Shown one piece after another: positions 12,193 to 53,893 of a stretch of 64,000 nucleotides of DNA. Under the pieces are notes generated by a model that was not told where the DNA came from, searched no databases, and was given only the letters and a program-made list of their open reading frames with translations. The DNA comes from Candidatus Gordonibacter avicola (GTDB lineage Bacteria; Actinomycetota; Coriobacteriia; Coriobacteriales; Eggerthellaceae), in the NCBI GenBank assembly GCA_019113915.1, contig DXGM01000027.1:62001-126000 (forward strand). Reading direction: 5' to 3'. The position numbers and the translations under genes were made by a program. Each line of letters starts with the position of its first letter. The stretch's first letter is position 1.

Positions 12193-14424
12193 ATGGAGGA
12201 ATCACGGTACTTGTTCGTCGATCACGAAAAGCCATTCCGCTATAAAGAGGGTGACCTCACCGTGACGCGGGGGAGCGCATGGTCTGGCCCCGGGTGCCAT
12301 CTCGGGTGCGGCGTGCTGCTTTACACCGACGAGGAGGGAAAGCTTGTCAAGGTTGAAGGCGACCCCGAAAATCCCTACAACCAAGGACGCCTGTGCCCCC
12401 GCTGTCTTGATTTGCCTGAAGTCACCAACCACGAAGACCGCCTCCTCTACCCGCTCAAGCGCGATCCAACTGATCGAGGTAAAGACACCTGGAAACGCAT
12501 CGGATGGGATGAAGCATTTGATCTTATAGAGTTGAAGTTCAAGGAAATCAAACGTGAATACGGGCCCGAAGCAGTTCTGTTCATGCAGGGCACCGGGCGC
12601 GATATCGCACCGTATATCACTCGTTTGTGCTGGTCATTCGGCAGCCCCAACTTTTCACTCTTCCTCAGCGGCGCTGCATGCTATGTACCACGCGTCATCG
12701 GCTTGGCTGGCACAGTTGGAGCTTTCCTCGTTCCTGACTGTTCCCAAGTCCATCCCGATCGCTACGACAATCCGGAGTATTGTATCCCAGAAACAATTTT
12801 CATCTGGGGTAACAACTGCGTCGTGTCCAATTCCGACGGCTTTTTCGGACACTGGGTGGTCGACCTCATGAAGCGCGGCAGCAAGATTGTGGTCATTGAC
12901 CCGAAAGTCACTTGGCTGGCATCAAAAGCGGCCGCTCATTTGCGTGTCCGCCCCGGAACAGACGCCGCCCTCGCGCTCGGCATGCTATACGTCATTATCA
13001 ACGAAGACCTTTACGATCATGATTTTGTAGACAAGTGGTGCTATGGGTTTGACGAGTTGCGCGAACGCGTTCAAGAATACCCTGTTGAACGTGTAGCTCG
13101 CATAACCTGGGTACCTGAAGAAAAGATTATCACCGCCGCCCGTCTGCTTGCTCAAAGCAAACCAGCGGCTCTTGAGTGGGGCGTGGCCGTCGACATGACG
13201 AAAGAGGCTATCCCTGCAGGCCAAGCTATCTCTACCCTTTTCGAGATCACCGGCAACATCGAGGTTCCGGGAGGAATGATAGTTCCTCCGGAAATATTGA
13301 AATACGTGGGCGGCTGGGGTAAGGATCTCCTTCCCGCCGAAGCAGCCGAAAAGCGCATCGGTCAAAAGAAGTACCCCCTGTTTGCTTCCGAGGCACAGCC
13401 CGACTGCATCGTCGAGCAACTCGAAACGGGTGAGCCCTATCGCATACATGGCGCATGGATTCAAACCTCGAACTTCCTTTCTTGCATGGCTGCCGACCCT
13501 CAACGCCTTTACCGTGCGATTAAAACCATCGACTTCATTGCCTACGTCGATTTGTTTATGACTCCCACCGCCATGGCACTGGCCGATGTGATTCTGCCCG
13601 CAGCCACTTTCCCCGAGCGCAACGGCATCCGCCTCGGAGACGGCGCACAACGAGGAGAAACCATCAACAAGGTGACCAGTATCGGTGAATGCAAGTCCGA
13701 CATGGAAATCAACCTTGAACTGGGTCGTCGATTCAACCCTGAAGCGTGGCCTTGGGAGACGGTCGAGGAGATGTTCACCTTCCTCTTAAAGGACGACACC
13801 GGCATGACGTTTGAAGAACTCCAGCAGAAAGCGCCCGCCTATCCTCCGTTCGAATACCACCGACACGAGAAGGGCATGTTGCGCAAGGATGGCGCTGTTG
13901 GATTCAACACCGCCACTGGCCGCATTGAGCTTTGGTCGACGTTCTACCAGAGTGTCGGACTTGATCCACTCCCCTATTTCGAAGAGCCCTCCCCTGGCCC
14001 TGGCGCAACTCCTGAACTCATGGAGGAGTACCCGCTTGTGCTCACAACGGGTGCACGTACGTGGAGCATGTTCCATTCCGAGCATCGCCAAGTGAAACGC
14101 ATGCGCGCGCTCCACCCCGACCCCATCATCGAAGTTCATCCTACAACGCTTGAGCGCTTTGGACTCAGGGACGGAGAGTGGGTGTGGGTCGAGAACCAGT
14201 TTGGTCGTGCGAAACGAAAAACTGTGGCGACACCCGTCATCGACCCCCGCATGTGTAGCACGGATCATGCCTGGTGGCTCCCTGAAGGCGATCCTGAATC
14301 TTTCTATGACGTGTTCGAGCTCAATATCAACAACCTTGTGCAATGGTCGCCCGGCAAAAGTGGCTTTGGTTCAAATTACAAAACCGCCCTCTGCAAGATT
14401 TACCGCATTCAGGAAGGAGAGTGA
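12193..14424 (+). CDS. Molybdopterin oxidoreductase, acetylene-hydratase-like (MoOR1)
   Basis: This is a bis-MGD enzyme of the DMSO reductase superfamily, 743 residues. AGGAGG precedes the ATG. Cysteines C35, C39, C68 and C71 lie where the N-terminal Fe-S cluster binds, but the first cysteine of the usual CxxCxxxC pattern is replaced (GSAW at 27-30). C163 in AACYVPR aligns by eye with the Mo-ligand cysteine of acetylene hydratase, and the C-terminal domain (from about 615) has the MGD-binding LVLTTGA segment. There is no Tat signal, so it is cytoplasmic. The ferredoxin gene follows after 3 bp. The reaction is unknown; hydration, dehydroxylation or hydroxyl transfer on a small or aromatic substrate is plausible. 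Confidence 0.92.
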   Translation: MEESRYLFVDHEKPFRYKEGDLTVTRGSAWSGPGCHLGCGVLLYTDEEGKLVKVEGDPENPYNQGRLCPRCLDLPEVTNHEDRLLYPLKRDPTDRGKDTWKRIGWDEAFDLIELKFKEIKREYGPEAVLFMQGTGRDIAPYITRLCWSFGSPNFSLFLSGAACYVPRVIGLAGTVGAFLVPDCSQVHPDRYDNPEYCIPETIFIWGNNCVVSNSDGFFGHWVVDLMKRGSKIVVIDPKVTWLASKAAAHLRVRPGTDAALALGMLYVIINEDLYDHDFVDKWCYGFDELRERVQEYPVERVARITWVPEEKIITAARLLAQSKPAALEWGVAVDMTKEAIPAGQAISTLFEITGNIEVPGGMIVPPEILKYVGGWGKDLLPAEAAEKRIGQKKYPLFASEAQPDCIVEQLETGEPYRIHGAWIQTSNFLSCMAADPQRLYRAIKTIDFIAYVDLFMTPTAMALADVILPAATFPERNGIRLGDGAQRGETINKVTSIGECKSDMEINLELGRRFNPEAWPWETVEEMFTFLLKDDTGMTFEELQQKAPAYPPFEYHRHEKGMLRKDGAVGFNTATGRIELWSTFYQSVGLDPLPYFEEPSPGPGATPELMEEYPLVLTTGARTWSMFHSEHRQVKRMRALHPDPIIEVHPTTLERFGLRDGEWVWVENQFGRAKRKTVATPVIDPRMCSTDHAWWLPEGDPESFYDVFELNINNLVQWSPGKSGFGSNYKTALCKIYRIQEGE

Positions 14425-14427
14425 CTC

Positions 14428-14769
14428 ATGGAAAACATCGGAATGCTCATCGATTATGAGTGGTGCTCCGGCTGCCATAGCTGCGAAGTTGCCTGCCAAA
14501 TGGAGCACGGTCTTCCCGTTGGACAGACAGGCATCTCTGTTCACACCGTCGGCCCTTGGGAAATTGCCGAGGACAATTGGCAATACACCCATCTAGCTCT
14601 TCCCACCAAACAGTGCACCGGATGCGTAACACGCCGCGCAAAGGGAAAGCTTGCCTCCTGCGCCCACCACTGTCAATCGAAATGTCTTCAGGTAGGACCG
14701 CTCGAAGACCTGATGGCAGAGTTGTCAAACAAGCCAAGCCAAGCGCTTTTCTTCATTCAACAGCTCTAA
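14428..14769 (+). CDS. Small two-cluster ferredoxin subunit (locus 1)
   Basis: The 113-residue protein has C13-x2-C16-x2-C19-x3-C23 (EWCSGCHSCEVAC) and a second set C63-x2-C66, C78, C82, C86, enough for two [4Fe-4S] clusters. It is much shorter than the usual four-cluster DmsB-type electron-transfer subunit. The gene starts 3 bp after the molybdoenzyme stop, so it is very likely that enzyme's electron-transfer partner. Close paralogues are encoded at 40686 and 50436, each directly after a molybdoenzyme gene. Confidence 0.9.
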   Translation: MENIGMLIDYEWCSGCHSCEVACQMEHGLPVGQTGISVHTVGPWEIAEDNWQYTHLALPTKQCTGCVTRRAKGKLASCAHHCQSKCLQVGPLEDLMAELSNKPSQALFFIQQL

Positions 14770-14826
14770 CTCCCTTGTTACTGGGGAAATATCGCTTCCA
14801 TCAAGAATACGAAAGGAGGTGTTCCT

Positions 14827-15042
14827 ATGTGCTTCAGACCGCCCACTATCGATAACGGCCCCATCATCTGCCCGAAGTGCGGAGCCGAAGTCGATCCGAC
14901 GGCCAGCGAATGCCCCAACTGTGGCGCGAAAGCTGCCCCCGCTCCTGGAGCTCCTGCTATGCCGGCAGCTCCCGGCGCGCCGAAGGTTCCCAGCGTCCCG
15001 CAGGCCCCTTCCGTCCCCAAGCCACCAGCACCGAAGGCCTAA
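14827..15042 (+). CDS. Small zinc-ribbon protein with Pro/Ala tail (locus 1)
   Basis: The 71-residue product has two knuckles, CPKCGAE and CPNCGAK, as in a compact zinc ribbon, followed by a Pro/Ala-rich tail. AAAGGAGG lies just upstream of the ATG at 14827, which supports a real gene. It sits between the ferredoxin gene and the transhydroxylase-like gene. Comparable Cys-rich mini-proteins occur at 43647 and 52170, each beside a molybdoenzyme and a LuxR gene, all with a CG followed shortly by a PAPG-like stretch. Function unknown; metal handling, protein docking or maturation are possibilities. Confidence 0.75.
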   Translation: MCFRPPTIDNGPIICPKCGAEVDPTASECPNCGAKAAPAPGAPAMPAAPGAPKVPSVPQAPSVPKPPAPKA

Positions 15043-15076
15043 TCGACGGAAACACGTGTATCGGAGGAGAGAAACT

Positions 15077-17692
15077 ATGGGAAACAACGTGAAAGGCACG
15101 CCTATCGTAAAGGGCCTTGGCTTCAACAGCTTTGGCATCGGCACAAACGCGTGCACCGTCGACATCGACGAAGAGAACGACAAGATTCTGCGCATTCGGC
15201 CCTTCCACTTCGACGAACATCAGACACCTGAGGAATTGAACGCCTGGAAAATAGAAGCGCGTGGTTCTACTTTTGAGCCGGGCTTCAAGACACTCATCTC
15301 ACCGTTGTCACTGTGTTACAAAAAGCGCGTTTACTCGAAGAATCGCATCCCTTATCCACTTAAGCGCGTGGACTGGGATCCCCAGGGCGAGCGCAACCCG
15401 CAAAACCGCGGCACCAGTGGCTACGTGCGCATCAGCTGGGACGAGGCGTGCGAAATCACCGCAGCCGAAATCAAGCGTATTCATGACCAGTACGGTCCGG
15501 CGTCCATCCTGTGTGAACTTGACGGCCATGGCGAAACGAAGTTTGTTCACGCCCCGCATGGCTGCCAAAGTCGCATGTTTGACCTCATCGGAAGCTACAC
15601 ACTCCAAACACGGCAACCGGACAGCTGGGAGGGCTGGTATTGGGGGGCCAAGCACATCTGGGGCATGGATCCACTCGGCCAAAACTCGCTGCAGAATAAC
15701 GTCATCAAAGACATCGCTGAAAATGGTGACGCTGTGCTCTTCTGGGGCTGCGACGTAGAGACAACCCCGCTTGGTTGGGGAGGCTATTTGGCAAGCCGTT
15801 TGTGCTTCTGGTTCACGGAACTGGGCGTGAAACAGATTCACATTTCGCCCGACGTGAACTATACCAACGCTGTGCATGCCGACTTCTGGATACCCGTTAA
15901 GCCTAACACCGATGCGGCGCTTCAGCTGGCTATCGCCTATACCTGGATTAAGGAAGGCACCTACGACCAGGACTATCTCGACACGCATAGCATTGGGTTC
16001 GAGAACTTTAAGTACTATGTTATGGGTGGAGAAGACGGTGTACCCAAAACACCAAAATGGGCTGAAGCTATTTGCGGTGTTCCGTCATACACTATTAAGG
16101 CGTTCGCCCGCTACTGGGCAAAACATGCCGTATCCATTGCACACTGCAACGGCGGAAGCTACATACGCTCCTGCTTCGCTCACGAGCCAGCGCGCCTTGA
16201 AGTGGCTCTTTTAGGGATGCAAAGCGTCGGTAAGCCAGGAGCCAATCAATTCAAGTTCATCGAATGGACGCTCTACGGCATGGAATCAGTCACCCCGTTG
16301 CCCCCTTCGTCAGAAATCCCCAACTGTAGCCCCGCCTACCGCGGCTGGTTCCGCAGCTTCCCGAAAAGTTTCATCCCGAAAACGATGATCCCCGAAGCCA
16401 TTATGAACCCTCCGGTGAGTTGGTATGGTCACATTGGTGCCGGTTTCCCGCGCGAAGACCAGTTCGACGGCCCCTATACCTTCCCCCTTGAGGGCAACGA
16501 GCGCCTGCATATGATCTGGTCTGACACTCCGTGTTGGGAAACGTGCTGGAACGGTGGCAACGAAATGCAGGAAGCGCTCCGTCACGAGTCCATCGAATTT
16601 ATCATCGTGCAGCATCCTTGGATGGAAAACGACTGCTTCTTCGCCGACATCATTCTGCCCACCAACACGAAGTTCGAAACCGAGGACATAGGAACCGACT
16701 CAGACAACGGGCAGTGGAACGTTGTGTACTTTGAACGCCAAGCAGTGAAGCCTCGCCTGGAGTCGAAGTCCGATATGGAAGCCGTTGGCGAAGTGGCTAA
16801 GAAGCTTGAAAAGTACGGTGGTATTTACGAAAACCTGTATGAGCGTTACATGGGCGGTAAAACCTGCGAAGAATACATCCAGGCTGGCTTCGAAAATACC
16901 GGCGCCGCAAAAAAGATGACGTTTGATGAATTTAAGGAAAAGCAGTACTACGCATTCCCTACAAAGGAAAAGTGGGAAGATCTGCCGGTCGGCCTCAGCC
17001 AGTTCCATGACGATCCCGAAGGGCATCCACTCTCAACACCTTCTGGTAAGTTGGAATACTATTCCACGCGTTTGGCTGACGAGTTTCCCGACGACAAGGA
17101 ACGTGGCCCCGTACCTCACTGGGTGGATGAAGGCGCAGGCCATCAGGAACGGCAATATCTCGAACGTGGGAGAAAGTACCCATTCCTTCTCGTATCAAAC
17201 CATCCACGCTGGCGTGTCCATGCGAACCTCGACGACGTCACCTGGTTCCGCGAAATGGAAGAATACGTAAAAGTAACCGGTCCCGACGGCTACAAGTATG
17301 AGCCGGTGTGGGTGCACCCGATCGATGCCGGAAAGCTCGGTCTGCGCACCGGCGATGTCGTTAAGCTCCACAACGAGCGTGGCGCTGTGCTGGGAGGCGT
17401 ACGCGTAACCGAACGCATCATGCCCGGCGTCGTCTACCAGGATCATGGCAGCCGCGTCGACTCTATCGTACTTGGACGCGGAGGACTCGACCGCGGTGGC
17501 GCGAACAACCTCATCGCACCATACGCAACTACTTCAAGCCACGCATTCGGAGAAGTGACCAGCGGTTTTTTGGTGGGTGTGGAAAAGGTAGATGTATTCA
17601 AGCTCGCCGAAGAATATCCCGAGGCCTTCAACCGCGACTACGATCCCGATTGCGGCCTCGTCGCCACGGCGCGCGTCGTGGAAGGAGCATAG
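15077..17692 (+). CDS. Pyrogallol/phloroglucinol transhydroxylase-like large subunit
   Basis: This 871-residue protein matches the length and architecture of the alpha subunit of Pelobacter pyrogallol-phloroglucinol transhydroxylase (about 875 residues), a bis-MGD enzyme without its own Fe-S cluster. Consistent with that, the N-terminus has a single cysteine (C26) rather than a cluster motif. The segment Asp182-Ser183-Trp184 may correspond to the Asp-Ser-Trp stretch of that enzyme in which Ser ligates Mo, and His151 to its active-site histidine; both need alignment. GGAGG precedes the ATG at 15077; a longer upstream frame overlaps the zinc-ribbon gene. There is no Tat signal. The iron-sulfur subunit follows after 4 bp. 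The substrate is probably a polyhydroxylated aromatic, but this is inferred. Confidence 0.87.
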   Translation: MGNNVKGTPIVKGLGFNSFGIGTNACTVDIDEENDKILRIRPFHFDEHQTPEELNAWKIEARGSTFEPGFKTLISPLSLCYKKRVYSKNRIPYPLKRVDWDPQGERNPQNRGTSGYVRISWDEACEITAAEIKRIHDQYGPASILCELDGHGETKFVHAPHGCQSRMFDLIGSYTLQTRQPDSWEGWYWGAKHIWGMDPLGQNSLQNNVIKDIAENGDAVLFWGCDVETTPLGWGGYLASRLCFWFTELGVKQIHISPDVNYTNAVHADFWIPVKPNTDAALQLAIAYTWIKEGTYDQDYLDTHSIGFENFKYYVMGGEDGVPKTPKWAEAICGVPSYTIKAFARYWAKHAVSIAHCNGGSYIRSCFAHEPARLEVALLGMQSVGKPGANQFKFIEWTLYGMESVTPLPPSSEIPNCSPAYRGWFRSFPKSFIPKTMIPEAIMNPPVSWYGHIGAGFPREDQFDGPYTFPLEGNERLHMIWSDTPCWETCWNGGNEMQEALRHESIEFIIVQHPWMENDCFFADIILPTNTKFETEDIGTDSDNGQWNVVYFERQAVKPRLESKSDMEAVGEVAKKLEKYGGIYENLYERYMGGKTCEEYIQAGFENTGAAKKMTFDEFKEKQYYAFPTKEKWEDLPVGLSQFHDDPEGHPLSTPSGKLEYYSTRLADEFPDDKERGPVPHWVDEGAGHQERQYLERGRKYPFLLVSNHPRWRVHANLDDVTWFREMEEYVKVTGPDGYKYEPVWVHPIDAGKLGLRTGDVVKLHNERGAVLGGVRVTERIMPGVVYQDHGSRVDSIVLGRGGLDRGGANNLIAPYATTSSHAFGEVTSGFLVGVEKVDVFKLAEEYPEAFNRDYDPDCGLVATARVVEGA

Positions 17693-17696
17693 CATC

Positions 17697-18515
17697 ATGG
17701 GAAAAGTATTTGTATTCGATCACGCAAAGTGCAACGGTTGCCGCAACTGCCAGATAGCATGCAAAGACGAGCACGTCGACAATGACTGGTCCCCTTGGGC
17801 AAAACCCCAACCTGACACCGGCCACTTCTGGACACATATTGAAGAACGTGTCTGTGGCCAAGTGCCAAAAGTCAAGGTTTCTTACCTGCTTCACATCTGC
17901 CAACACTGCGAGAATGCACCCTGCATCGAGGCTGCACCGGAAGCGGTTTTTCGTCGAGACGATGGCCTGGTCATCATCGACCCAGAAAAGGCAAAAGGTT
18001 TGAAGGAACTTGTCGAAGCGTGCCCCTATGAAGCCATTTTCTGGAACGAAGAACTTGAGCTTCCTCAGAAGTGCACAGGTTGCGCGCATCTCGTTGATGC
18101 AGGAGAGGTTCCTCACTGTGTCGATGTGTGTCCTCATGGCGCTTTACGCTTCGGCGATGAAGAAGATTTTGAATCCGAATTGGCAATCGCCGAAGCGCTC
18201 GTACCAGAGCGTGCAAAAACAGACTGCCCACGCGTACACTACCTCAACCTTCCCAAGCGCTTCCTCGCTGGTCTTGTTGTAGACCTAGAGGCAGACGAGG
18301 TGGTAATCGGCGCAAAGGTTACGGCAGAAAACGTGGATTCTGGGGAAGTTCTAGTTACCGAAACCGACGAATTCGGCGATTTCTGGTTCCACTGTGTTCC
18401 CGAAGCCAACTGGAAGCTCTATGTCGAAGCCGAAGGCTATCTCTCTCGCATGCTGGAAGCTTCCACCGTTGAAGAGGACCGCAACGTAGGACCTGTGCAA
18501 GTGTTCGCGAGCTAA
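17697..18515 (+). CDS. Transhydroxylase-like iron-sulfur subunit with C-terminal beta domain
   Basis: The 272-residue protein has twelve cysteines grouped for three [4Fe-4S] clusters: C12, C15, C18, C22; C68, C71, C76, C109; C126, C129, C141, C145. Residues 185-272 form a separate beta-rich domain (VVDLEADEVVIGAKVTAEN, then FGDFWFHCVPE) like the transthyretin/Cna-B-like module at the end of the Pelobacter transhydroxylase beta subunit (about 274 residues). This domain is absent from ordinary DmsB-type subunits, so it is the strongest sign that the pair is transhydroxylase-like. It starts 4 bp after the large-subunit gene. Confidence 0.9.
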   Translation: MGKVFVFDHAKCNGCRNCQIACKDEHVDNDWSPWAKPQPDTGHFWTHIEERVCGQVPKVKVSYLLHICQHCENAPCIEAAPEAVFRRDDGLVIIDPEKAKGLKELVEACPYEAIFWNEELELPQKCTGCAHLVDAGEVPHCVDVCPHGALRFGDEEDFESELAIAEALVPERAKTDCPRVHYLNLPKRFLAGLVVDLEADEVVIGAKVTAENVDSGEVLVTETDEFGDFWFHCVPEANWKLYVEAEGYLSRMLEASTVEEDRNVGPVQVFAS

Positions 18516-18583
18516 GTAGGTAATAAGGGGAGCGGCGGGCGACGGGCCTCGGTCCGCGCTCGCCGCCTGAAAGGGGTGAACTC

Positions 18584-20008
18584 ATGAGTTCTGAAGCCTT
18601 GAAGAAAACATTCTCTGTCAAGGGAGTAGTGGGCATCGTCTTGTCGATCGTCGTCATGATCGCATCATGCATGGTGCCAGGCACCGAAGCACTCTCCCAC
18701 GAGGGAGCTATGGGCCTGGGCATCATGGCAACGGCCGTCATTCTCTGGATCTGCGAGACTTTTCCCGCAGGAGTCACCGGCATTCTCGTTCTCGTTTTGG
18801 CGGGAATGTTCAACGTCGTTCCGCTCAAAACGGTGTTTTCCGGATTTGGTGGCACGACGGTGTTTTTCGTCATCGGCGTGTTCAGCCTAACCATTCTGAT
18901 GATGAAGACAAACCTGGGACAGCGACTCACCAGAAGGCTTGTCAAATGGGCCGGTCCTAACTCCAAGAAACTCGTACTAGCGTTCATGATAGGCTCGGCG
19001 CTTATCTCTACCGTTATGACCGACACGGGAGCTGTTGTTATCACTATGGGTTTGGCACTTCCGTTTCTGGAAGCCATCGGTCACAAGCCCGGCCAGTCCA
19101 ATCTTGGAAAATGCCTGATGATAGGTGTAGCCTTTGCTGCCATCATGGGCGGATTCTGCACACCCGCTGGACACTCCATGAACGTCTTGGCGCTAGGTAT
19201 GCTCCAAGAGTTTAACGGCGCAAGCATCGGCTTTTTGCAGTGGATGCTCGTGGGTGTTCCCTTCGCCATTGTTCTCATTCCCATTTGCTGGATCTTCCTC
19301 GTCAAAATCCTCAAACCCGAGCCCATCACTGAAGGCGATATCGAAACTATTCTTTCGGGAACGAGCGATTTGGGCAAGCTCAGTACCTTGGAGAAGAAGG
19401 CACTCGTCATGCTCATCGGCATTCCGGTGCTGTGGATTCTTGGCAACTGGATTCCCCTGCTGGATACCACAACCGTAGCCGTCATTGGTTTGGCTATTAT
19501 GTTTATGCCCGGCATGAATCTACTCGAATGGGAGGATATGCAGAAAGGTGTTCCGTGGAATATCGTTCTCATGCTGGGAGGCATCTTATCTCTGGGATCC
19601 ATTTTGGGAGCAACTGGCGGAGCCGCTTACATAGCGAACCTGTTCCTTTCCAGTGGCGTGCTTGCCATGGATCCTTTGGTTGCACTCCTACTGATTGGCG
19701 CGTTTGCTTACCTACTTCACACGTTTTTGCCCGTCGCACCCGCAATCCTCACCATTTTCCTGCCTCCGCTTTTTGTGTTCGCTGAAGCAGCTGGGATTCC
19801 GCCTGCGGTTCCGATGCTTATCATTGTGGCCATTGTGTCCGGAAACTTCATCTTGCCGCTGAATCCCACGATCACAGTAGCGTATGCGAAGGGCTACTTC
19901 ACGTTTGCCGACGTAGCCAAAGCAGGCATCATTCCTGCAATTATCTTCGTGGCGATACTCGTTCCTTGGGTATCCTTCATGGCCGGGACTCTTGGATTAG
20001 GTATGTAA
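18584..20008 (+). CDS. DASS/SLC13-family anion transporter
   Basis: The 474-residue membrane protein has about twelve helices in two inverted halves, typical of divalent anion:sodium symporters (SLC13/ArsB-NhaD superfamily). The motifs GFGGTTVFFVIGVF and ILPLNPTITVAYAKGYF fit the two hairpin/unwound-helix regions. It closes the locus 1 operon, 68 bp after the iron-sulfur subunit gene, with a GC-rich imperfect hairpin in that gap (about 18532-18568). The likely role is import of the carboxylated substrate or precursor of the two molybdoenzymes, which is inferred from context. Confidence 0.9.
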   Translation: MSSEALKKTFSVKGVVGIVLSIVVMIASCMVPGTEALSHEGAMGLGIMATAVILWICETFPAGVTGILVLVLAGMFNVVPLKTVFSGFGGTTVFFVIGVFSLTILMMKTNLGQRLTRRLVKWAGPNSKKLVLAFMIGSALISTVMTDTGAVVITMGLALPFLEAIGHKPGQSNLGKCLMIGVAFAAIMGGFCTPAGHSMNVLALGMLQEFNGASIGFLQWMLVGVPFAIVLIPICWIFLVKILKPEPITEGDIETILSGTSDLGKLSTLEKKALVMLIGIPVLWILGNWIPLLDTTTVAVIGLAIMFMPGMNLLEWEDMQKGVPWNIVLMLGGILSLGSILGATGGAAYIANLFLSSGVLAMDPLVALLLIGAFAYLLHTFLPVAPAILTIFLPPLFVFAEAAGIPPAVPMLIIVAIVSGNFILPLNPTITVAYAKGYFTFADVAKAGIIPAIIFVAILVPWVSFMAGTLGLGM

Positions 20009-40685: not shown

Positions 40686-41036
40686 CTAGCGAGGGATGAA
40701 CAGAGCTTGCTTTGGCTCGCTCCCCAGCTTCTGAGCCAGTTCCTCCACCGGACCAAATTCCATGCACTTCGCTAAGCAGTGGTGCACACACGAAGGTTTC
40801 TTTCCTTCAGCGACACGCACCTCGCACAAATCGCACAAGTCAGTGGGAACGGGAATATGATTCCAATTAAAATCGTTCCCCATGGTCTCAGACCCCGTCT
40901 TTGACCAGGGGCCATCCTTAAGTACTCGGATGCCCCATTCACCCACGGTTAAACCGTGTTCTTCCTTACACGCCACCTCGCATGATTGGCAGCCCGAACA
41001 CCACTCGTATGAAATAAGCAATCCGTAGGCAGTCAT
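40686..41036 (-). CDS. Small two-cluster ferredoxin subunit (locus 2)
   Basis: The 116-residue protein has C13, C16, C19, C23 and C68, C71, C83, C87, C91, the same nine-cysteine layout as the locus 1 protein, with EWCSGCQSCEVAC at the front. Its ATG overlaps the molybdoenzyme stop (TGATG), so the two subunits are translated together. It should transfer electrons to or from MoOR2. Confidence 0.9.
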   Translation of the reverse strand: MTAYGLLISYEWCSGCQSCEVACKEEHGLTVGEWGIRVLKDGPWSKTGSETMGNDFNWNHIPVPTDLCDLCEVRVAEGKKPSCVHHCLAKCMEFGPVEELAQKLGSEPKQALFIPR

Positions 41037-43351
41037 CAGTACACCAGCTTTCCAAAACGCTCGGCGAAATCTTTCAGATCAAGATCGTAGTTCTCGGTAA
41101 GGGGGCTCACGTTGCACAGGCTGTTCTTAAACGGGGCACCATACCCCAGCTTGCCAATTCGCTTATGCGGAACGAGACAGTTGCAGTTGCTCTTCCACAC
41201 GCCGAACAAGCTTGGCTCTTCCGGGTCATCCTCGGGGAACCACCAGCCATGATGCGCATGCACGGTCCCTGGGTACACCGTGGGCGTAACCTTTGCCTTA
41301 AACTTGGCTTGACCAAACTGGTTTTCTATGAGAACCCACTGACCATCCGCCACGCCGCGTTTCTTTGCGTCATCGGGGTGTATCTCCAAAAGCGGGTTAG
41401 GCACCAGTTCACGCAGCGGCACCACCTGGCGGTGCTCCGAGTGGAACGAAGCGTATTCACGTGCCCCTGTCATGAGGATGAATGGGTATTTCTCCGCAAT
41501 CTCAGGCGTGGAAACCGGGCTAAAGGGCGGCTCCTGATAGTACGGAAGCGGATCGTCTCCGTAGTACTGGAACAGATACGAATAGAATTCAAACCGTCCG
41601 GAACGCGTGTTGAAGCCCAGTTCGCCGTTTGGACGCAGCAGCCCCTTCTCGTACTTCCGATATGTTACGCCGCGCTTGTGGTACACTTTGTCGCGTAGTT
41701 CGGCAAACGTCATTTCACGGGCAATACGCACGTCAGCGATGAAGTCGTGCAGATCAGCGTACGTGCCGTCGTTCCATATTTCAGGATTCAGGCGCTTACC
41801 CAATTCCCAGATAACTTGATAGTCATCCTTGCACTCCCCCACCGTGATAGCCTTATTCGTGGCACCGTACGTGACCGGAGATAGCGTGTAATGGGTCATA
41901 TTAATGGAATCCTTCTCCGCCGCCGTGGCCAGCGGCAGGAAGATGTCACAGCACGCCTGGATGGTGGGCGTTATGAACAGGTCCGTGCCAATGCCGAAGT
42001 CCAGCTTCGACAGCGCTTTATGCCAACGCTGCGGCTGAGCGCTATTGGTAGGCGAAAGCAAGTTATTCGACTGAACAATAACCATGTGGAACTCGTAGGG
42101 GTCGCCCGTCTCAAGCGCGTCGAGCAGCAGGTCAGCGTGCGCATTGAGGATGGAGTTCACATAGTATGGGTACTGATCCATGCCAATGGTCTTCGCACGC
42201 AAGTCGGGGTCGAGCTTATTCCATCCATAGTTAGGCACTACGGTATCATCCTGGAATTCGCCGCCCATCAGCTGCCCACCGGGTACGTCCAGGTTCCCGG
42301 TAAGCGCCATGAGGGACAGGATGCAGTGGCCTGCCTGCACGCCATTTTGCTGCTGGTCGATAGCAAGGCCCCACGCGATGGAAGCGGGCTTGGCCTTCGC
42401 ATACGTACGAGCGACCGCGTAGATATCCTCCACGTTGAGGCCGCAGATCTCGGCCGCACGCTCGGGAGGCATCTCCTTGGCACGCTCTGCCAATTCCTCA
42501 AAACCCCACGTCCAGCGCTCTACGAAATCGTGGTCATACAATTCTTCGGTCACGATGATGTTGATAAGGGCCAGCCCAAGCGCCGCGTCGGTGCCGGGGC
42601 GAAGCCTGAGCTGCAGGACGGCGCGTGTCGTGAGCCAGTTCACACGCGGGTCAATGGCAATGAGTTTTGCACCGCAACGCATGAGGTCAAGCACGGCATG
42701 ACCAAACAAGCCATCACCGTTTGACGCAAGTGGCTGTTTACCCCACACCATGATAACCTCGGGCACCACATAATCTGGATCATCATAACCACCGGGAAGT
42801 CCGCCAGCGTAATCGATCTCAGGGTATCCAACGCCTGAAGCAAACATGGCGCTGGCACAGCGCGGCTCATAGCAGGCGTAGCCCGACTGCGTGTAAGCCG
42901 AGTTTGGCGTTCCGAACACTGCATGCGCCAGCGTCTGTGAAAGAATGCCGCCATCGCGTCCAGTGCCGCTCAAAAGACAGATGCTCTCCGCACCGTACTT
43001 CTCTTTAATTTCCGTCGTTTTGCGCTCGATGATGTCGAAAGCATCGTCCCACGTAGTGCGCTCCCACTTGTCTTTGCCGCGGTCTTCGCGGGCTCGCTTT
43101 AAGGGATGAATCACTCGTGACGGATTGTAGATATAGTCCTTCAGTGCCAAGCATCGCACGCACAGACGCCCATTGGTGACAGGGTTATTCTCATCTCCCT
43201 CAACCTTTTCCAACACGCCGTCCTTAACGTACAGCTTGACGCCGCAACCGACGGGATGACATCCAGGAGGTGACCAGATTGAAGAGCGTGTGACCGTATA
43301 GTCCCCCTCTTCATAGCACCACGGTTTATCCAGATCGTTCTCAAATTTCAT
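41036..43351 (-). CDS. Molybdopterin oxidoreductase, acetylene-hydratase-like (MoOR2)
   Basis: The start at 43351 (MKFENDLDKPW) aligns with the two paralogues; a longer frame adds 23 unmatched residues. The 771-residue bis-MGD enzyme has C31, C36, C64 and C67 near the N-terminus, with spacing CHPVGC (one residue longer than its paralogues). C160 in ACYEPR is the probable Mo ligand by comparison with acetylene hydratase, and FILMTGARE opens the C-terminal MGD-binding domain. There is no Tat signal. It leads an operon with ferredoxin, FKBP and two MFS genes. Substrate unknown. Confidence 0.92.
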   Translation of the reverse strand: MKFENDLDKPWCYEEGDYTVTRSSIWSPPGCHPVGCGVKLYVKDGVLEKVEGDENNPVTNGRLCVRCLALKDYIYNPSRVIHPLKRAREDRGKDKWERTTWDDAFDIIERKTTEIKEKYGAESICLLSGTGRDGGILSQTLAHAVFGTPNSAYTQSGYACYEPRCASAMFASGVGYPEIDYAGGLPGGYDDPDYVVPEVIMVWGKQPLASNGDGLFGHAVLDLMRCGAKLIAIDPRVNWLTTRAVLQLRLRPGTDAALGLALINIIVTEELYDHDFVERWTWGFEELAERAKEMPPERAAEICGLNVEDIYAVARTYAKAKPASIAWGLAIDQQQNGVQAGHCILSLMALTGNLDVPGGQLMGGEFQDDTVVPNYGWNKLDPDLRAKTIGMDQYPYYVNSILNAHADLLLDALETGDPYEFHMVIVQSNNLLSPTNSAQPQRWHKALSKLDFGIGTDLFITPTIQACCDIFLPLATAAEKDSINMTHYTLSPVTYGATNKAITVGECKDDYQVIWELGKRLNPEIWNDGTYADLHDFIADVRIAREMTFAELRDKVYHKRGVTYRKYEKGLLRPNGELGFNTRSGRFEFYSYLFQYYGDDPLPYYQEPPFSPVSTPEIAEKYPFILMTGAREYASFHSEHRQVVPLRELVPNPLLEIHPDDAKKRGVADGQWVLIENQFGQAKFKAKVTPTVYPGTVHAHHGWWFPEDDPEEPSLFGVWKSNCNCLVPHKRIGKLGYGAPFKNSLCNVSPLTENYDLDLKDFAERFGKLVY

Positions 43352-43415
43352 AGTGAAACCCCCATTGCCTTCGTCACCTGTCGCCGGCCGTGCGAAAAAG
43401 GTGAGCTGATACGAT

Positions 43416-43425
43416 GACACGTGTC
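43416..43425. promoter_or_regulatory. Palindrome GACACGTGTC in the locus 2 divergent region
   Basis: A perfect 10-bp palindrome lies 65 bp upstream of MoOR2, in the 295-bp gap to the zinc-ribbon gene. The CACGTG core also occurs between the divergent genes of locus 1 (12006-12011). A 10-bp direct repeat TTCGTATTGT (43514-43523 and 43561-43570) lies in the same gap. Confidence 0.35.
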
Positions 43426-48064: not shown

Positions 48065-48102
48065 CCCCCTGTGCACACATGTGAAAAGGTATGCACAGGG
48101 GG
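48065..48102. promoter_or_regulatory. Perfect 11-bp inverted repeat upstream of MoOR3
   Basis: CCCCCTGTGCA (48065-48075) and TGCACAGGGGG (48092-48102) flank a 16-nt spacer containing CACATGTG, 76 bp upstream of the enzyme start. It could be a regulator site or leader hairpin. Further upstream, GGTA/TACC half-sites recur (47987-48002). Confidence 0.5.
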
Positions 48103-48177
48103 TTTGGCTTGGGGCGCAGCAGTAGCCGCCAAGCCACCAAGCTCATCGTTCGAAGAGACGAAAGGAGAGGGAGCTTC

Positions 48178-50430
48178 ATGGGAGAGAAACGAGACTACAC
48201 CACCGTCGATCACGAAAAGCCGTATCGCTTTGACGAAGACGGGCTGCACGTGACCAGGGGGTGCGGATGGTCGGCGCCGGGATGCCACCTCGGATGCGGC
48301 GTTCTGCTGTTTACCGACGACAACGGAAAGCTCGTTAAAGTGGAGGGTGACCCCGAGAATCCCTTCAACCAGGGGCGCTTGTGCGTGCGCTGCCTCGATC
48401 TGCCGGAAGTCGTGTATTCGCCGGACCGCATCCTACACCCGATGAAACGCGACCCGAAAAACCGCGGCAAGAACCAGTGGGAGCAGATAAGCTGGGACGT
48501 TGCGCTCGACGAAATCGCCGGGAAAATCCTGGAAGCCAAGGAAGAATACGGCCCGGAATCCGTGGCATTCTACTCGGGCACCGGCCGCGACATCGGCCAG
48601 TACATCACGCGTTTGTGCTGGGGATTCAATAGCCCCAACTTCGTGTTCATGATGTCGGGCCAGTCATGCTATTCGCCGCGCGTTGCCGGCTGCTTTTCAA
48701 CCTCTGGGTCGTTCTGGGTGGGCGACTACGCGCAGCAGTTCCCCGACCGCTACGACAATCCGAACTGGGAACAGCCCGACCTCATTGTGATCTGGGGCAA
48801 TAACCCCATCATATCGAACTCCGACGGCCTGTACGGTCACTGGGTGGTCGACTGCATGAAGCGAGGTACAAAGGCCATCGTCGTTGACCCTCGCTTGACC
48901 TGGCTCGCTTCGCGCGCCGAACTCTTCCTGCAGATTCGCCCTGGCACCGACGGCGCCCTGGCGCTTGGCATGGTGAACTACCTGATAGAGAACGACCTCT
49001 ACGACCATGAGTTCGTCGACCTGTGGTGCTACGGCTTCGATGAACTGGCCGAACGCGCCCGCGAATACCCGCTTGACGAAGTTGCCGCCATCACGGAAAT
49101 CCCCGCGGACGAAATCGCCGCCGCCGCCCGCCGCATCGGCACAGCAGAGCGCGCCATTTTGCAGTGGGGCGTTGCCATCGACCAAATCAAAGAAACCATC
49201 CCCACAGCGCAGGCCGTGCTCGCGCTCTTCGAAATTACCGGCAACATCGGCAAACCCGGCACCATGCAGCAGCCCGCAAGCATTCTCAACTACGCCGCTG
49301 GCTGGGGCTCCGAATTCCTCACGCCGGAGCAGGAGGCGAAACGCATCGGCCAGGAGGAACACCCGCTCATCAAGATGGGCTTCCAGGAATGCGTCACCGA
49401 CGACTACATCAAGTGCCTCGAAACGGGCACGCCCTACCCCATCAAGGTGGCATGGATGCAGACTACCAACCCCCTGGCCTGCACCGGCGTCGACGCGAAG
49501 CGCACCCTGGCCGCGCATATGAACATCGACACCATCGTGTGCGTCGACCTGTTCATGACACCCACCGCCATGGCGCTGGCCGACTACTTCCTGCCCGCGT
49601 GCACGTATGCCGAACGCAACGGCCTGCGTATCGGCGACGGCGCGCAGCGTGCCGAAACCATCAACAAGGCCATCGAGCCTTTGGGCGAGTCAAGGTCTGA
49701 CATGCAGATATGTCTCGACATTGGCAAGCGCATCTCGCCTGAGGCCTGGCCGTGGGACACGGTGGAGGACATGTACTCCGACATCCTGGAAGAGACCGGC
49801 CACTCCTTCGAAGAAATGCAGGAGCTGGCGCCCGGCTATCCGCCGTTCGACTACCGCATGCACGAAAAAGGCCTGCTGCGCGAGGATGGCAACCCCGGCT
49901 TCCAAACCGCAACGGGTCGCATCGAGCTGTGGTGCACCATGTACAATTCGCTCGGCCTCGACCCGCTTCCGTCTTATGAAGAGCCAGTGCCCAGCCCCCG
50001 GTCAACACCGGAGCTGTTCGAAGAGTACCCGCTCGTGCTTACCACCGGCGCACGCGTGTGGAGCATGTTCCATTCGGAGCATCGTCAGATTCCGCGCATG
50101 CGCGCCCTGCACCCCGAGCCTCTGGTGTATGTCAACCCGGCCACCGCTGCGAAGTATGGCGTAAAGGACGGCGACTGGGTGTGGCTGGAGAATATGCACG
50201 GGCGCTGCAAGCGTCAGGTGCGCGAAACGCCCATCGTGAACGAGCACACCATCAACACCGATCACGCCTGGTGGCGCCCGGAAGCGCCGTGCGAGCTGGA
50301 CGAGGGCCTGTACGATTTGTGGGACCTCACCGTTGAGAACCTTCTGCCCTACGACTGCGGCGCGTCCGGCTTCGGCGCGAATTACAAGAACACCATTTGC
50401 AAGATGTACCCGGTAGCGGAAGGAGCGTAA
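48178..50430 (+). CDS. Molybdopterin oxidoreductase, acetylene-hydratase-like (MoOR3)
   Basis: AAAGGAGAGG sets the start at 48178. The 750-residue enzyme is the closest relative of MoOR1 (both begin with a VDHEKP segment about ten residues in). Cysteines C29, C36, C40, C69 and C72 surround the expected Fe-S site; C29 is absent in MoOR1. C164 in SCYSPR is the probable Mo ligand, and LVLTTGARVW opens the C-terminal cofactor domain. There is no Tat signal. Ferredoxin, MFS, zinc-ribbon and LuxR genes follow on the same strand. Substrate unknown. Confidence 0.92.
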   Translation: MGEKRDYTTVDHEKPYRFDEDGLHVTRGCGWSAPGCHLGCGVLLFTDDNGKLVKVEGDPENPFNQGRLCVRCLDLPEVVYSPDRILHPMKRDPKNRGKNQWEQISWDVALDEIAGKILEAKEEYGPESVAFYSGTGRDIGQYITRLCWGFNSPNFVFMMSGQSCYSPRVAGCFSTSGSFWVGDYAQQFPDRYDNPNWEQPDLIVIWGNNPIISNSDGLYGHWVVDCMKRGTKAIVVDPRLTWLASRAELFLQIRPGTDGALALGMVNYLIENDLYDHEFVDLWCYGFDELAERAREYPLDEVAAITEIPADEIAAAARRIGTAERAILQWGVAIDQIKETIPTAQAVLALFEITGNIGKPGTMQQPASILNYAAGWGSEFLTPEQEAKRIGQEEHPLIKMGFQECVTDDYIKCLETGTPYPIKVAWMQTTNPLACTGVDAKRTLAAHMNIDTIVCVDLFMTPTAMALADYFLPACTYAERNGLRIGDGAQRAETINKAIEPLGESRSDMQICLDIGKRISPEAWPWDTVEDMYSDILEETGHSFEEMQELAPGYPPFDYRMHEKGLLREDGNPGFQTATGRIELWCTMYNSLGLDPLPSYEEPVPSPRSTPELFEEYPLVLTTGARVWSMFHSEHRQIPRMRALHPEPLVYVNPATAAKYGVKDGDWVWLENMHGRCKRQVRETPIVNEHTINTDHAWWRPEAPCELDEGLYDLWDLTVENLLPYDCGASGFGANYKNTICKMYPVAEGA

Positions 50431-50435
50431 GCCAT

Positions 50436-50777
50436 ATGGGCGCAAAGGGATTGTTGGTCGATTACGAATGGTGCACAGGGTGCCACACCTGCGAAGTGGC
50501 CTGCCAACTTGAGCACGGCTACCCAAGCGACCAGTGGGGCATCAAAGTGCACGAAGTGGGCCCATGGGAGTACGCGCCAAAGAAGTGGCAGTACAGCTAC
50601 CTGCCCGCGCCCACGGACCAGTGCGATTTGTGCGGCGCGCGCGTGGCGAAGGGCCACGTGCCCACCTGCGTAAAGCACTGCCAGGCGCAGGTTTTGAAGT
50701 ACGGGGATATTGAAGATTTGGCGCGCGAGCTGGCCCAAAAGCCCAAGCAGACCCTGTTCTGCTGCGCGTCAGCTTAA
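50436..50777 (+). CDS. Small two-cluster ferredoxin subunit (locus 3)
   Basis: AAGGAG lies before the ATG at 50436, 5 bp after the enzyme stop. The 113-residue protein has C13, C16, C19, C23, C63, C66, C78 and C82; the ninth cysteine of the other two copies (position 86) is Val here, so it is not essential for the two [4Fe-4S] clusters. Partner of MoOR3. Confidence 0.9.
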   Translation: MGAKGLLVDYEWCTGCHTCEVACQLEHGYPSDQWGIKVHEVGPWEYAPKKWQYSYLPAPTDQCDLCGARVAKGHVPTCVKHCQAQVLKYGDIEDLARELAQKPKQTLFCCASA

Positions 50778-50856
50778 CCGTACCGGCTTGTTTCGGCGCC
50801 TGATGAGAGGGGAAACACCATCGGGCGCCGGCATCATTACGAAAGGGGAACACTTC

Positions 50857-52086
50857 ATGAATAAGAAAACTCGGGCATGGATTCCTGTATGGGCCATTAT
50901 TATCGCCAGCGTGCTCATTGCATTTGAGTACGGCAAGGTGCCGCCCGCCGCACCAAACATGATGGAAGTGCTGGGCATTTCCTACACCACCCAAGGCCTC
51001 ATGATGACCATGTTTTCCATCGCGGCTGTGGTCATGGCGCTGTTCGGCGGCGCGCTCATGGATCGCTTCGGCGCGCGCAAAGTGGTCAGCATTGCGCTTT
51101 TAGTGTCCATCGTGGGCAATGTGGTTGGCCTGTTCTGGACAAGTGATGTGGGCATTTTGGTAACCCGCGCGCTGGAAGGCTGCGGTTACGGCGCAGCCAT
51201 GACCGCAGGCCCTGGCATTATCGCCATGTGGTACGAGCCCAAAAAGCGTGGCCTCGCCAACGGCGTGTGGGGCGCGAACGTCGGCTTCGCCATGATGATT
51301 GTGACGTTGTCCGCCACCCCCATCATGGAGAACAGCAACTGGACGGGCATGTGGATCTTCGGCCTCATTGGTGCGGTGCTGGCCTTCATGCTGGTGGTTG
51401 TGTGCGTGAAAGCGCCAGCCGAATCCGAGCGTAAGGACCTGGAAGAAACCACCGGCGTCAAAGAAGATACCGAGAAGCATGGTGTTTTGTGGGGCTACTT
51501 AGCTCCGCTGTCCCTGCTGAGCGCCGTCATGTTCTTCCTGGTGGGCGGCGCAACCGACGCGTTCAACGCCTTCACCATTCCCTTCCTGAACGTCGAGAAC
51601 GGCTGGAGCGAAGGCGCGGCGAACATGTGCGCAACCATTGCGGCCGCGGGTATGCTGGTCGGCGGCACCACGATGGGCGTAGTGCTTGCGCGGACGAAGG
51701 ACAAGGGCATGTTGCTGTTTGTCGATATGCTGGTGTGCGCTATCGGCCTCTTCCTGTGGTTCAACCTGAACATTGGTGTAGTGGGAACGTATATCATCGC
51801 CTTTGTGCTGGGATGCTTCCTGGGCGCTGCGCCCACCGTGTTCTTCGCGATGGCTCCTGAGGTGGCACGTTCGCCGAAAACGGTTGGTGCCGCAACCGCC
51901 GTGGTGGTGCTCGGGCAAAACGGTGGCACCCTGGCCGTGCCCGCACTTGTTGGCATGATTCTTGACAGCGCTGGCTACAGTGCAGCGGCGGTGGCCATGG
52001 GCGCGTTGTCGCTGGTGGCGTGCGCAATCTGCCTGTTCGCTTTCCGCCGCATCTACAACAAGAGCAAGCGGGTCACGCTCGAATAG
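50857..52086 (+). CDS. MFS transporter (locus 3)
   Basis: The start at 50857 follows GAAAGGGG. The 409-residue protein has twelve helices with motif A GALMDRFGARKVV and a GCGYGAAMTAGPGIIAMWYEP stretch in helix 4-5, as in the anion and nitrate-like MFS branches. It lies downstream of the ferredoxin gene and probably imports or exports the MoOR3 substrate or product. It is only distantly similar to the two locus 2 carriers. Confidence 0.88.
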   Translation: MNKKTRAWIPVWAIIIASVLIAFEYGKVPPAAPNMMEVLGISYTTQGLMMTMFSIAAVVMALFGGALMDRFGARKVVSIALLVSIVGNVVGLFWTSDVGILVTRALEGCGYGAAMTAGPGIIAMWYEPKKRGLANGVWGANVGFAMMIVTLSATPIMENSNWTGMWIFGLIGAVLAFMLVVVCVKAPAESERKDLEETTGVKEDTEKHGVLWGYLAPLSLLSAVMFFLVGGATDAFNAFTIPFLNVENGWSEGAANMCATIAAAGMLVGGTTMGVVLARTKDKGMLLFVDMLVCAIGLFLWFNLNIGVVGTYIIAFVLGCFLGAAPTVFFAMAPEVARSPKTVGAATAVVVLGQNGGTLAVPALVGMILDSAGYSAAAVAMGALSLVACAICLFAFRRIYNKSKRVTLE

Positions 52087-52112
52087 CGACAGCGAGCATA
52101 CGCAGTTCTAAA

Positions 52113-52144
52113 CGGTGGGCATCGGATTTACTCGATGCCCACCG
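52113..52144. terminator. Perfect 12-bp hairpin between MFS and zinc-ribbon genes
   Basis: CGGTGGGCATCG pairs with CGATGCCCACCG across an 8-nt loop, 27 bp after the MFS stop and 26 bp before the zinc-ribbon start. It has no T-run, so it is more likely a stem that limits readthrough or protects the upstream mRNA. Confidence 0.55.
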
Positions 52145-52169
52145 CGAAGATTCGAGGTGAGGTACCGTT

Positions 52170-52370
52170 ATGAGGGAACACTGCTTTCCGTGCCGAAACT
52201 GTGGGAAATGCCATCCCCCTTACCGCCGGGGTTTGTGTCCTGCGTGTCTGAGCGCAAACAAGCCTGACGCAAAGGTGTGCGCAACCTGCGGCTTTGTTTT
52301 CCCCGCCTCACCAGGAACGAAGGGCGGCTTGGGTAGTTTTTCATCGCGTGGCACACACGACAAGGTTTGA
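52170..52370 (+). CDS. Small zinc-ribbon protein (locus 3)
   Basis: The 66-residue product has CFPCRNCGKC, CPAC and CATCG, then PASPG and a Gly/Ser-rich end, the same plan as the copies at 14827 and 43647. GAGGTGAGG lies upstream of the ATG. It ends 23 bp before the LuxR gene and is probably co-transcribed with it. Confidence 0.75.
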   Translation: MREHCFPCRNCGKCHPPYRRGLCPACLSANKPDAKVCATCGFVFPASPGTKGGLGSFSSRGTHDKV

Positions 52371-52393
52371 GCCGAGACCACAGGAGGTGACCG

Positions 52394-53893
52394 TTGACTG
52401 CTCAAGAGAAGCACCTGTTCTCTGAATATGAGAGCACGCGCGCGGCCGAAAGCGACGGTCGCGACCTGCTTATCGGCAACAGTTCGCGCTACGTCATCTT
52501 GGGCATTGTGGCGCTGGCCGCCTACTGGGCCTGGATCTTTTCCATCTTCCACGCCAACGTGCTGAACCCGTTCGCGGCGGAGGAATTTAACGCCTACCTG
52601 ATGCTCTGCGTTATTGTTGCGGGCAGCTCAGCGCTGAGTATGGGAGCGTTTGTCCTGTTCGGGTGCTATTTACAGCGCATGGTAGACCGCATGTGGTTTA
52701 CCGTAGGCATCGCCTTGCTGTCGCTTTTAACGGAGGCTCCCGCGTTTCTTGGGCAGGTGGGCGGCGAGCTGAGCTTCCCACAAGCGGGGGTGCTTTTCGC
52801 TATTGGAGGATTTGCGTCCTCGTTCATCTATTTGAAGACCGGCCCCTTTTTCGTGTGGCTGCGGCGCGCCAAGCTGATGCGCAGCATCGCGCTGGCGTTT
52901 TTGCTGGCGTCGCTTCTGTACTTTTTGCCGCTGTTTATGACCCCGGTGGTGGGAATTAGCCTGATAGCCTCCTTCCCCGTGGCGTCCGTGGCGTGCTCGC
53001 ATCTAGTGAACAAAGGCATCGGACCGAAGCGACTCGATGCCGCCGAGTCATGCAGCGCCTACCGCACAGCGATTCTTGAGCGGCTGCGGGAGTTTGTTCC
53101 CACACTGCCGCGCACCTTGTTGTATACGCTCATTTTCGGCGTGACTTCCTACGCAGTGCTCAAGCTTGCCGTGGAACAAGGAATGGTGATGGTGATTGCC
53201 GCCTCGATTGCGGTGTCATCTTTGGCATTTGCCGTTTACGTGCTATCGAAGAAGGTGAAGGCCGACTCGGATTTGTACCGCATGCTGCTGCTTCCGCTGA
53301 TTGCCCTTGCGGTGCTGCCGTTTCCCTACGTGCCAGAGATGCTGAAAATTTTCTTCCTGACGCTGATTATTTTTGGGTTCACCTGTTTTGATGCTATCAC
53401 CTGGGGCGATTTGGCTGACGAAATAAGCGACCGCCAGCTACCTATTTATGTGTCGTACGCGCCGCCCACCATCGGCAACTTTTTCGGCATCTTCATTGGA
53501 TGGAGCGTGGGCGCGCTGCTGTATGCCGAACTTGGGCAAGCGGAGTTCGACACGGGATATTCCATCTTTTCCATCATTATTGTTATTGCGCTCGTGATGC
53601 TGCTAGTGTGGGACCTCATTAAAAGCCGGAAGGAGGAATCCGGCGAGCCCCAGGCGGACGCGTTTCTCGATAAATGGAAAGCAGCGTGCGAAGAGATTGC
53701 CGAGACGCACGAGCTTACCAACCAGGAGACGAGGATTCACACCATGTTGGCGCGCGGGCGTAACCAGCACTACATTGCCGAGGAACTGTTCATTTCGCCG
53801 CACACGATTAAGACGCACACCTACCATATTTATAAGAAGTTGGGCATACACTCACAGCAGGAGCTGATTGATATGGTGGAGGCTAAGTTGTAG
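52394..53893 (+). CDS. LuxR-type regulator with polytopic membrane sensor domain (locus 3)
   Basis: The TTG start at 52394 is supported by GGAGGTGA placed correctly. The 499-residue protein has about twelve helices (40-410), a charged linker and a LuxR HTH (LTNQETRIHTMLARGRN, then HTIKTHTYHIYKKLGIHSQQ). It is the counterpart of the locus 1 regulator, but lies downstream of and co-directional with its presumed target operon, so it may be co-expressed with it. Confidence 0.9.
   Translation: MTAQEKHLFSEYESTRAAESDGRDLLIGNSSRYVILGIVALAAYWAWIFSIFHANVLNPFAAEEFNAYLMLCVIVAGSSALSMGAFVLFGCYLQRMVDRMWFTVGIALLSLLTEAPAFLGQVGGELSFPQAGVLFAIGGFASSFIYLKTGPFFVWLRRAKLMRSIALAFLLASLLYFLPLFMTPVVGISLIASFPVASVACSHLVNKGIGPKRLDAAESCSAYRTAILERLREFVPTLPRTLLYTLIFGVTSYAVLKLAVEQGMVMVIAASIAVSSLAFAVYVLSKKVKADSDLYRMLLLPLIALAVLPFPYVPEMLKIFFLTLIIFGFTCFDAITWGDLADEISDRQLPIYVSYAPPTIGNFFGIFIGWSVGALLYAELGQAEFDTGYSIFSIIIVIALVMLLVWDLIKSRKEESGEPQADAFLDKWKAACEEIAETHELTNQETRIHTMLARGRNQHYIAEELFISPHTIKTHTYHIYKKLGIHSQQELIDMVEAKL

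Follow-up and report, generated by a model that had tools for sequence, protein, structure and literature searches.

Coriobacteriia of the gut determine which metabolites of plant phenols reach the host, and most of the many molybdoenzymes that they carry are without an assigned substrate. Two groups of described enzymes are relevant here. The first includes PgtL, the large subunit of pyrogallol-phloroglucinol transhydroxylase (TH), and RhL, its counterpart in resorcinol hydroxylase; both use phenols (PMC10100899). The second is the Gordonibacter-type catechol dehydroxylases (Cdh), which have no twin-arginine translocation (TAT) signal, work with a small 4Fe-4S protein, and are substrate-induced (PMC7028382, PMC12771579). 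Membrane LuxR proteins activate Cdh genes (PMC9734109). We analyzed a stretch of 64,000 nucleotides (nt) from Candidatus Gordonibacter avicola (the window; positions 62,001 to 126,000 of contig DXGM01000027.1), where a six-gene operon on the + strand (P2-P3-P4-P5-P6-P7, 12193-20008) encodes a TH-like pair of subunits (P5/P6) together with a Cdh-like molybdoenzyme and its small partner (P2/P3). We propose, with a probability of about 0.5, that this operon is a substrate-inducible, cytoplasmic unit that acts, probably reductively, on hydroxyls in the ring of a polyhydroxylated aromatic acid.

The closest relatives of P5 (15077..17692, + strand, 871 amino acids) and P6 (17697..18515, + strand, 272 amino acids) are the two subunits of TH from Pelobacter acidigallici (AthLS or PgtLS, PDB 4v4c), which have similar sizes and folds. 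P5 matches the large subunit (4v4c_A) with E = 2e-119. Its first, N-terminal domain is PF21423, with no cluster cysteines, and it contains the motif PDSWEGW, which is a feature of TH. The AlphaFold2 model of P5 (pLDDT 86.5) aligns to 4v4c_A with Z = 38.2 over 799 residues (rmsd 2.3). P6 is most similar to the small subunit (4v4c_B, E = 2.5e-48) and consists of a ferredoxin part for three 4Fe-4S clusters and an extra beta domain at the C-terminus (PF13620). Twelve of its 15 cysteines are cluster ligands (11 are invariant in 14 homologues and C76 is nearly invariant), all three cluster sets are conserved, and the small subunit is redox-competent. The AlphaFold2 model of P6 (residues 1-269) aligns to 4v4c_B with Z = 22.1 over 256 residues (rmsd 4.2); the next best match has Z = 18.0. 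The traits of the broad PgtL/RhL family are thus present: PF21423, PF13620, 12 conserved cysteines, and the fold matches. The original prediction, which was made from the DNA alone, had described a cluster-free large subunit, a twelve-cysteine small subunit with a beta domain, and these lengths, and all of this is borne out. Another idea, that P5 is a tetrathionate or polysulfide reductase, was rejected because TH scores far higher.

The molybdenum site of P5 resembles that of TH, but the substrate pocket does not. We take the relevant positions in TH to be His144, Tyr152, Arg153, Asp174, Ser175, Trp176, Trp354, Tyr404, Phe468, Cys557, and Tyr560; these letters match the PDB sequence at every number. 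Tyr404, Cys557, Tyr152, and Arg153 are said to be pocket residues in the 2004 study of the TH structure. The core of the molybdenum site in P5 is the ligand Ser183 with His151 and Asp182 (Ser175, His144, and Asp174 in TH) as well as Trp184 and Trp187. Across 90 relatives that are at least 50% identical to P5, the equivalents of His144, Asp174, Ser175, Trp176, and Trp179 of TH are kept in 89-90. At the pocket positions, Trp354 is replaced by glycine in all 90, Tyr152, Arg153, Tyr404, and Phe468 are also replaced, and Cys557 is a cysteine in just 5. A profile-profile alignment concurs that the pocket is lost, with Tyr404 and Trp354 landing in gaps. The original prediction had named a serine ligand and an active-site histidine, aspartate, tyrosine, and cysteine as residues to look for by alignment to the Pelobacter enzyme; the first three are retained, but the tyrosine and the cysteine are replaced throughout the clade.

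The phylogeny also separates P5 from TH. In a tree from FastTree, which has long branches and was built without authentic RhL, BtdhL, or DbhL sequences, TH clusters with four proteobacterial plasmid proteins that are 49-51% identical to it (support 100), and the sister clade to this group contains P5 and its relatives (support 99). Among 138 Eggerthellaceae genomes, 48 have a strong match, and none has a full-length match to TH above about 41% identity. Because P5/P6 lies in a separate clade and has lost the substrate residues even though the core of the molybdenum site is kept, "transhydroxylase" is, as far as sequence can tell, a family resemblance and not an assignment. So the specific claim that this pair is a pyrogallol-phloroglucinol transhydroxylase does not hold up. 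A true TH, which would transfer a hydroxyl in a redox-neutral reaction with a tetrahydroxybenzene as co-substrate, would fit with TH being the closest relative by sequence and by structure and with the retained serine, histidine, and aspartate. But six pocket residues are lost across the clade, and P5 is 35% identical to TH, versus about 50% for the proteobacterial relatives, so we consider a true TH to be improbable. P5/P6 also differs from TH in belonging to a cassette with a Cdh, a zinc ribbon, a DASS carrier, and a LuxR.

This large TH-like clade, which we set apart from the true transhydroxylase, has nine members in the window's genome (one of which, L097, is divergent) and extends to the Bacillota and the Chloroflexota. 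We found no functional data for the clade in the literature. AthLS proteins of Chloroflexota were interpreted as pyrogallol transhydroxylases (PMC3971608). From the Chloroflexota, our analysis covered the relatives at L039, L076, L080, L083, and L086, and these fall within the clade whose pocket is altered. Where proteins of Eggerthellaceae and Chloroflexota are labeled "pyrogallol hydroxytransferase", this may be an over-call.

We next consider the other molybdoenzyme. P2 (12193..14424, + strand, 743 amino acids) has acetylene hydratase as its best match in PDB (2e7z, E = 3e-92). Its Cys163, which is conserved in 51 of 51 relatives, is the likely molybdenum ligand, and the cluster cysteines Cys35/39/68/71 are found in 46 of the 51. 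Reading the N-terminus by eye, we saw no twin-arginine motif or transmembrane segment. P3 (14428..14769, + strand, 113 amino acids with 9 cysteines) begins 3 nt downstream of P2 and has matches to Fer4 families that are below the curated cut-offs; a P3-type gene also follows a P2-type gene at L009, L013, L014, L033, L039, L041, L078, L174, and L178. We therefore annotate P2/P3 as a putative catechol dehydroxylase of the Gordonibacter type. Like Dodh, Cldh, and Eadh1/2, it has no apparent TAT signal, a length of about 743 amino acids, a small 4Fe-4S partner, and a regulator and a transporter nearby. Unlike them, its carrier belongs to the DASS family instead of MFS, it is tied to an AthLS pair, and P2 is only about 48-49% identical to the homologues in its own genome that lie beside an Eah-like gene.

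Those homologues are among about 30 P2-type genes in this genome. On contig C43, an Eah-like amidohydrolase is near two Cdh-type genes (61596-62330, 63487-65751, and 50116-52371), and this region resembles the ellagic-acid (eam) cluster (PMC12771579). The window itself contains two more Cdh-type molybdoenzymes, with MFS genes nearby: one at 41036-43420 (- strand) that is 45% identical to P2, and one at 48091-50430 (+ strand) that is 59% identical to P2 and is accompanied by a LuxR-type regulator at 52394-53893. P2 of Gordonibacter sp. 28C had seemed to be disrupted, but the flagged TAG is its normal stop codon.

The two molybdoenzymes of the operon are linked in other genomes as well. From P2 to P7, the gaps between genes are 3, 57, 34, 4, and 68 nt, and the LuxR gene P1 (10444..11970, - strand) is divergent from the operon and 222 nt away. 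The same order, with a LuxR gene and then P2-P3-P4-P5-P6-P7, is repeated on contig C5 of the same genome (L174), in Gordonibacter sp. 28C (L178), in Adlercreutzia ZJ304 (L009), and in Gordonibacter Marseille-P2775 (L014). Since other genomes repeat the arrangement gene by gene, it is not due to chance, and the predicted layout of import, sensing, and transformation with a second molybdoenzyme is a recurring cassette. In Gordonibacter sp. 28C, the genes from P2 to P7 are 91/80/72/93/78/87% identical to those in the window; on contig C5 they are 65/50/83/81/80/45% identical. Altogether, an AthL-type gene occurs together with a Cdh-type gene at 21 loci (including L039 from Anaerolineales, which has AthLS, a P2 homologue at 63% identity, and P3), and the distances between linked homologues of P5 and of P2 are correlated (Mantel r = 0.56, 1 of 5000 permutations). 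Of the 17 AthL genes in three Gordonibacter genomes, 7 are within 5 kb of a Cdh gene, versus 1.7 expected. These results support a physical and evolutionary tie between P2 and P5/P6.

The copy on contig C5 is a full second cassette of seven genes in the same genome, with genes that are 35-83% identical to those in the window. This divergence suggests that it might act on a related but different substrate.

Clues to the substrate come from decarboxylase genes. In Adlercreutzia sp. ZJ304, another operon (L078, 5158-15093) has a LuxR gene and then UbiD-DASS-UbiX-AthL-AthS-Cdh-FeS. This is a 56% relative and is distinct from the operon in the window. The UbiD is closest to solved decarboxylases for 3,4-dihydroxybenzoate (protocatechuate; E = 2e-166) and to VdcC. 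Because L078 pairs AthLS with a hydroxybenzoate decarboxylase, it supports phenolic acids as the probable substrates of the P5/P6 clade. A decarboxylase next to a member of the clade would also fit the conversion of gallate to pyrogallol, as expected for a true TH, but there is no match to UbiD in the window's genome (G000) or in the Gordonibacter genomes G065-G068. For this reason we rejected a full route from gallate to phloroglucinol in the window's genome alone. In two loci from Dehalococcoidales (L076 and L083), an AthL-type gene is beside UbiX, HpaB-like, GlcD-like, and CCG-domain genes, and there is no match to AthS near it. A candidate for UbiD beside these AthL-type genes is actually an aldehyde dehydrogenase, so only UbiX is present. 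Since the clade is connected to catechol dehydroxylases and, in L078, to a hydroxybenzoate decarboxylase as well, only a few substrates need to be considered first, and these can be tried in strains that are already cultured and engineered in laboratories.

If our proposal is correct, then the membrane LuxR would sense a phenol and turn on the divergent operon, by analogy to DadR, HcdR, and CadR, and the DASS carrier would import an anionic phenolic acid. P2/P3, going by its class, would reductively take off one of two adjacent hydroxyls. P5/P6, with a serine-ligated bis-molybdopterin guanine dinucleotide and a partner with three 4Fe-4S clusters, would act on another ring hydroxyl, either of the same compound or of the product. 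(The substrate, the direction, and the order of the steps are what we infer.) For P5/P6, an electron-linked removal of a hydroxyl is more likely than a pyrogallol-type transfer, because the substrate residues of TH are gone, the redox small subunit is kept, and relatives of this organism dehydroxylate widely. More tentatively, the clade could be a new class of phenol ring-hydroxyl reductases that act in tandem with Cdh, with the two molybdoenzymes stripping two hydroxyls from one phenolic acid sequentially and serving anaerobic respiration.

Several points weigh against a reductive, phenol-specific unit. The small subunit of TH also has three clusters, although no net transfer of electrons is required by TH; the clusters in P6 are thus no proof that the reaction is reductive. 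The linkage statistic (7 of 17 versus 1.7) takes no account of shared ancestry or of the tendency of molybdoenzyme genes to cluster in general. Orthologues of P5 without a neighboring Cdh are found at L012, L042, and L082, so Cdh is a frequent but not an obligate partner. DASS carriers move mainly non-aromatic carboxylates or sulfate. Finally, the fold of P5 is nearly as close to MtsZ (Z = 36.9) and to DMSO reductase (Z = 36.3) as to TH (Z = 38.2), so a non-phenol substrate for P5 is possible. The last two points would be explained if P5/P6 were a respiratory reductase for S- or N-oxides or for aliphatic carboxylates, built on a TH-like scaffold, with the Cdh and the DASS carrier being incidental. 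The top match of P5 in NCBIfam is a subfamily of S/N-oxide reductases, far below its cut-off. We think that such a reductase is unlikely, given the PDSWEGW motif and the three-cluster subunit with a beta domain (both features of TH), the repeated linkage to Cdh, and the decarboxylase in L078.

P5/P6 might instead resemble RhL or DbhL and hydroxylate a 1,3-dihydroxy ring. In the 3,5-dihydroxybenzoate operon of Thauera, an RhL-type hydroxylase is presumably encoded beside a Cdh homologue. According to the literature, RhL and PgtL belong to a single family (PMC10100899), and the Thauera operon includes a homologue of Cdh (of the acetylene hydratase type) whose loss impairs growth (PMC7028382). 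This operon, which we compared by description only, is the nearest published parallel to the pairing of P5 and P2. However, hydroxylation requires a strong electron acceptor, and the bacteria with RhLS are nitrate-reducing degraders, while the cassette with a DASS carrier and a membrane LuxR is from a gut anaerobe, and reductive dehydroxylation is what Gordonibacter is better known for. We doubt that P5/P6 is a hydroxylase and prefer the reductive unit.

As for the other genes, profile matches agree with the gene content originally predicted for 12193-20008 (a molybdoenzyme, a mini-ferredoxin, a zinc ribbon, a TH-like pair, and a DASS carrier). The membrane LuxR is real but P1 lies outside of that region. 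P1 (508 amino acids) has a LuxR helix-turn-helix (HTH) at its C-terminus (PF00196, GerE, at 432-484, E = 1.8e-14) and hydrophobic segments at its N-terminus. In this architecture, and in being divergent from a molybdoenzyme operon, it is like DadR, HcdR, and CadR from Coriobacteriia. These are LuxR proteins with 10-12 transmembrane helices; we assigned P1 by its HTH, and a simple hydropathy scan of it found 8 strong segments. Divergent homologues of P1 are in the same place at L009, L014, L041, L174, and L178. P4 (14827..15042, + strand, 71 amino acids) is a small zinc-ribbon protein (PF13240, Zn_Ribbon_1, E = 1.3e-8), and a zinc ribbon is also upstream of the P5 orthologues at L009, L010, L012, L014, L042, L174, and L178. 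P7 (18584..20008, + strand, 474 amino acids) is an anion carrier of the DASS family (TIGR00785, E = 7.7e-62; 209.4 bits, versus a cut-off of 198.6), and in many loci a DASS gene follows closely after the AthS-type gene.

On the other side of P7, P8 (20079..20300, - strand, 73 amino acids) is a small HTH protein (PF01381, E = 1.5e-10) whose membership in the operon is uncertain; Gordonibacter sp. 28C has a homologue in the same place (L178, 74% identity). A scan with Rfam gave nothing useful, and scans for promoters and terminators were at about the level expected by chance. The window's genome has a very high number of matches to molybdopterin-binding domains (64 in 3.08 Mb).

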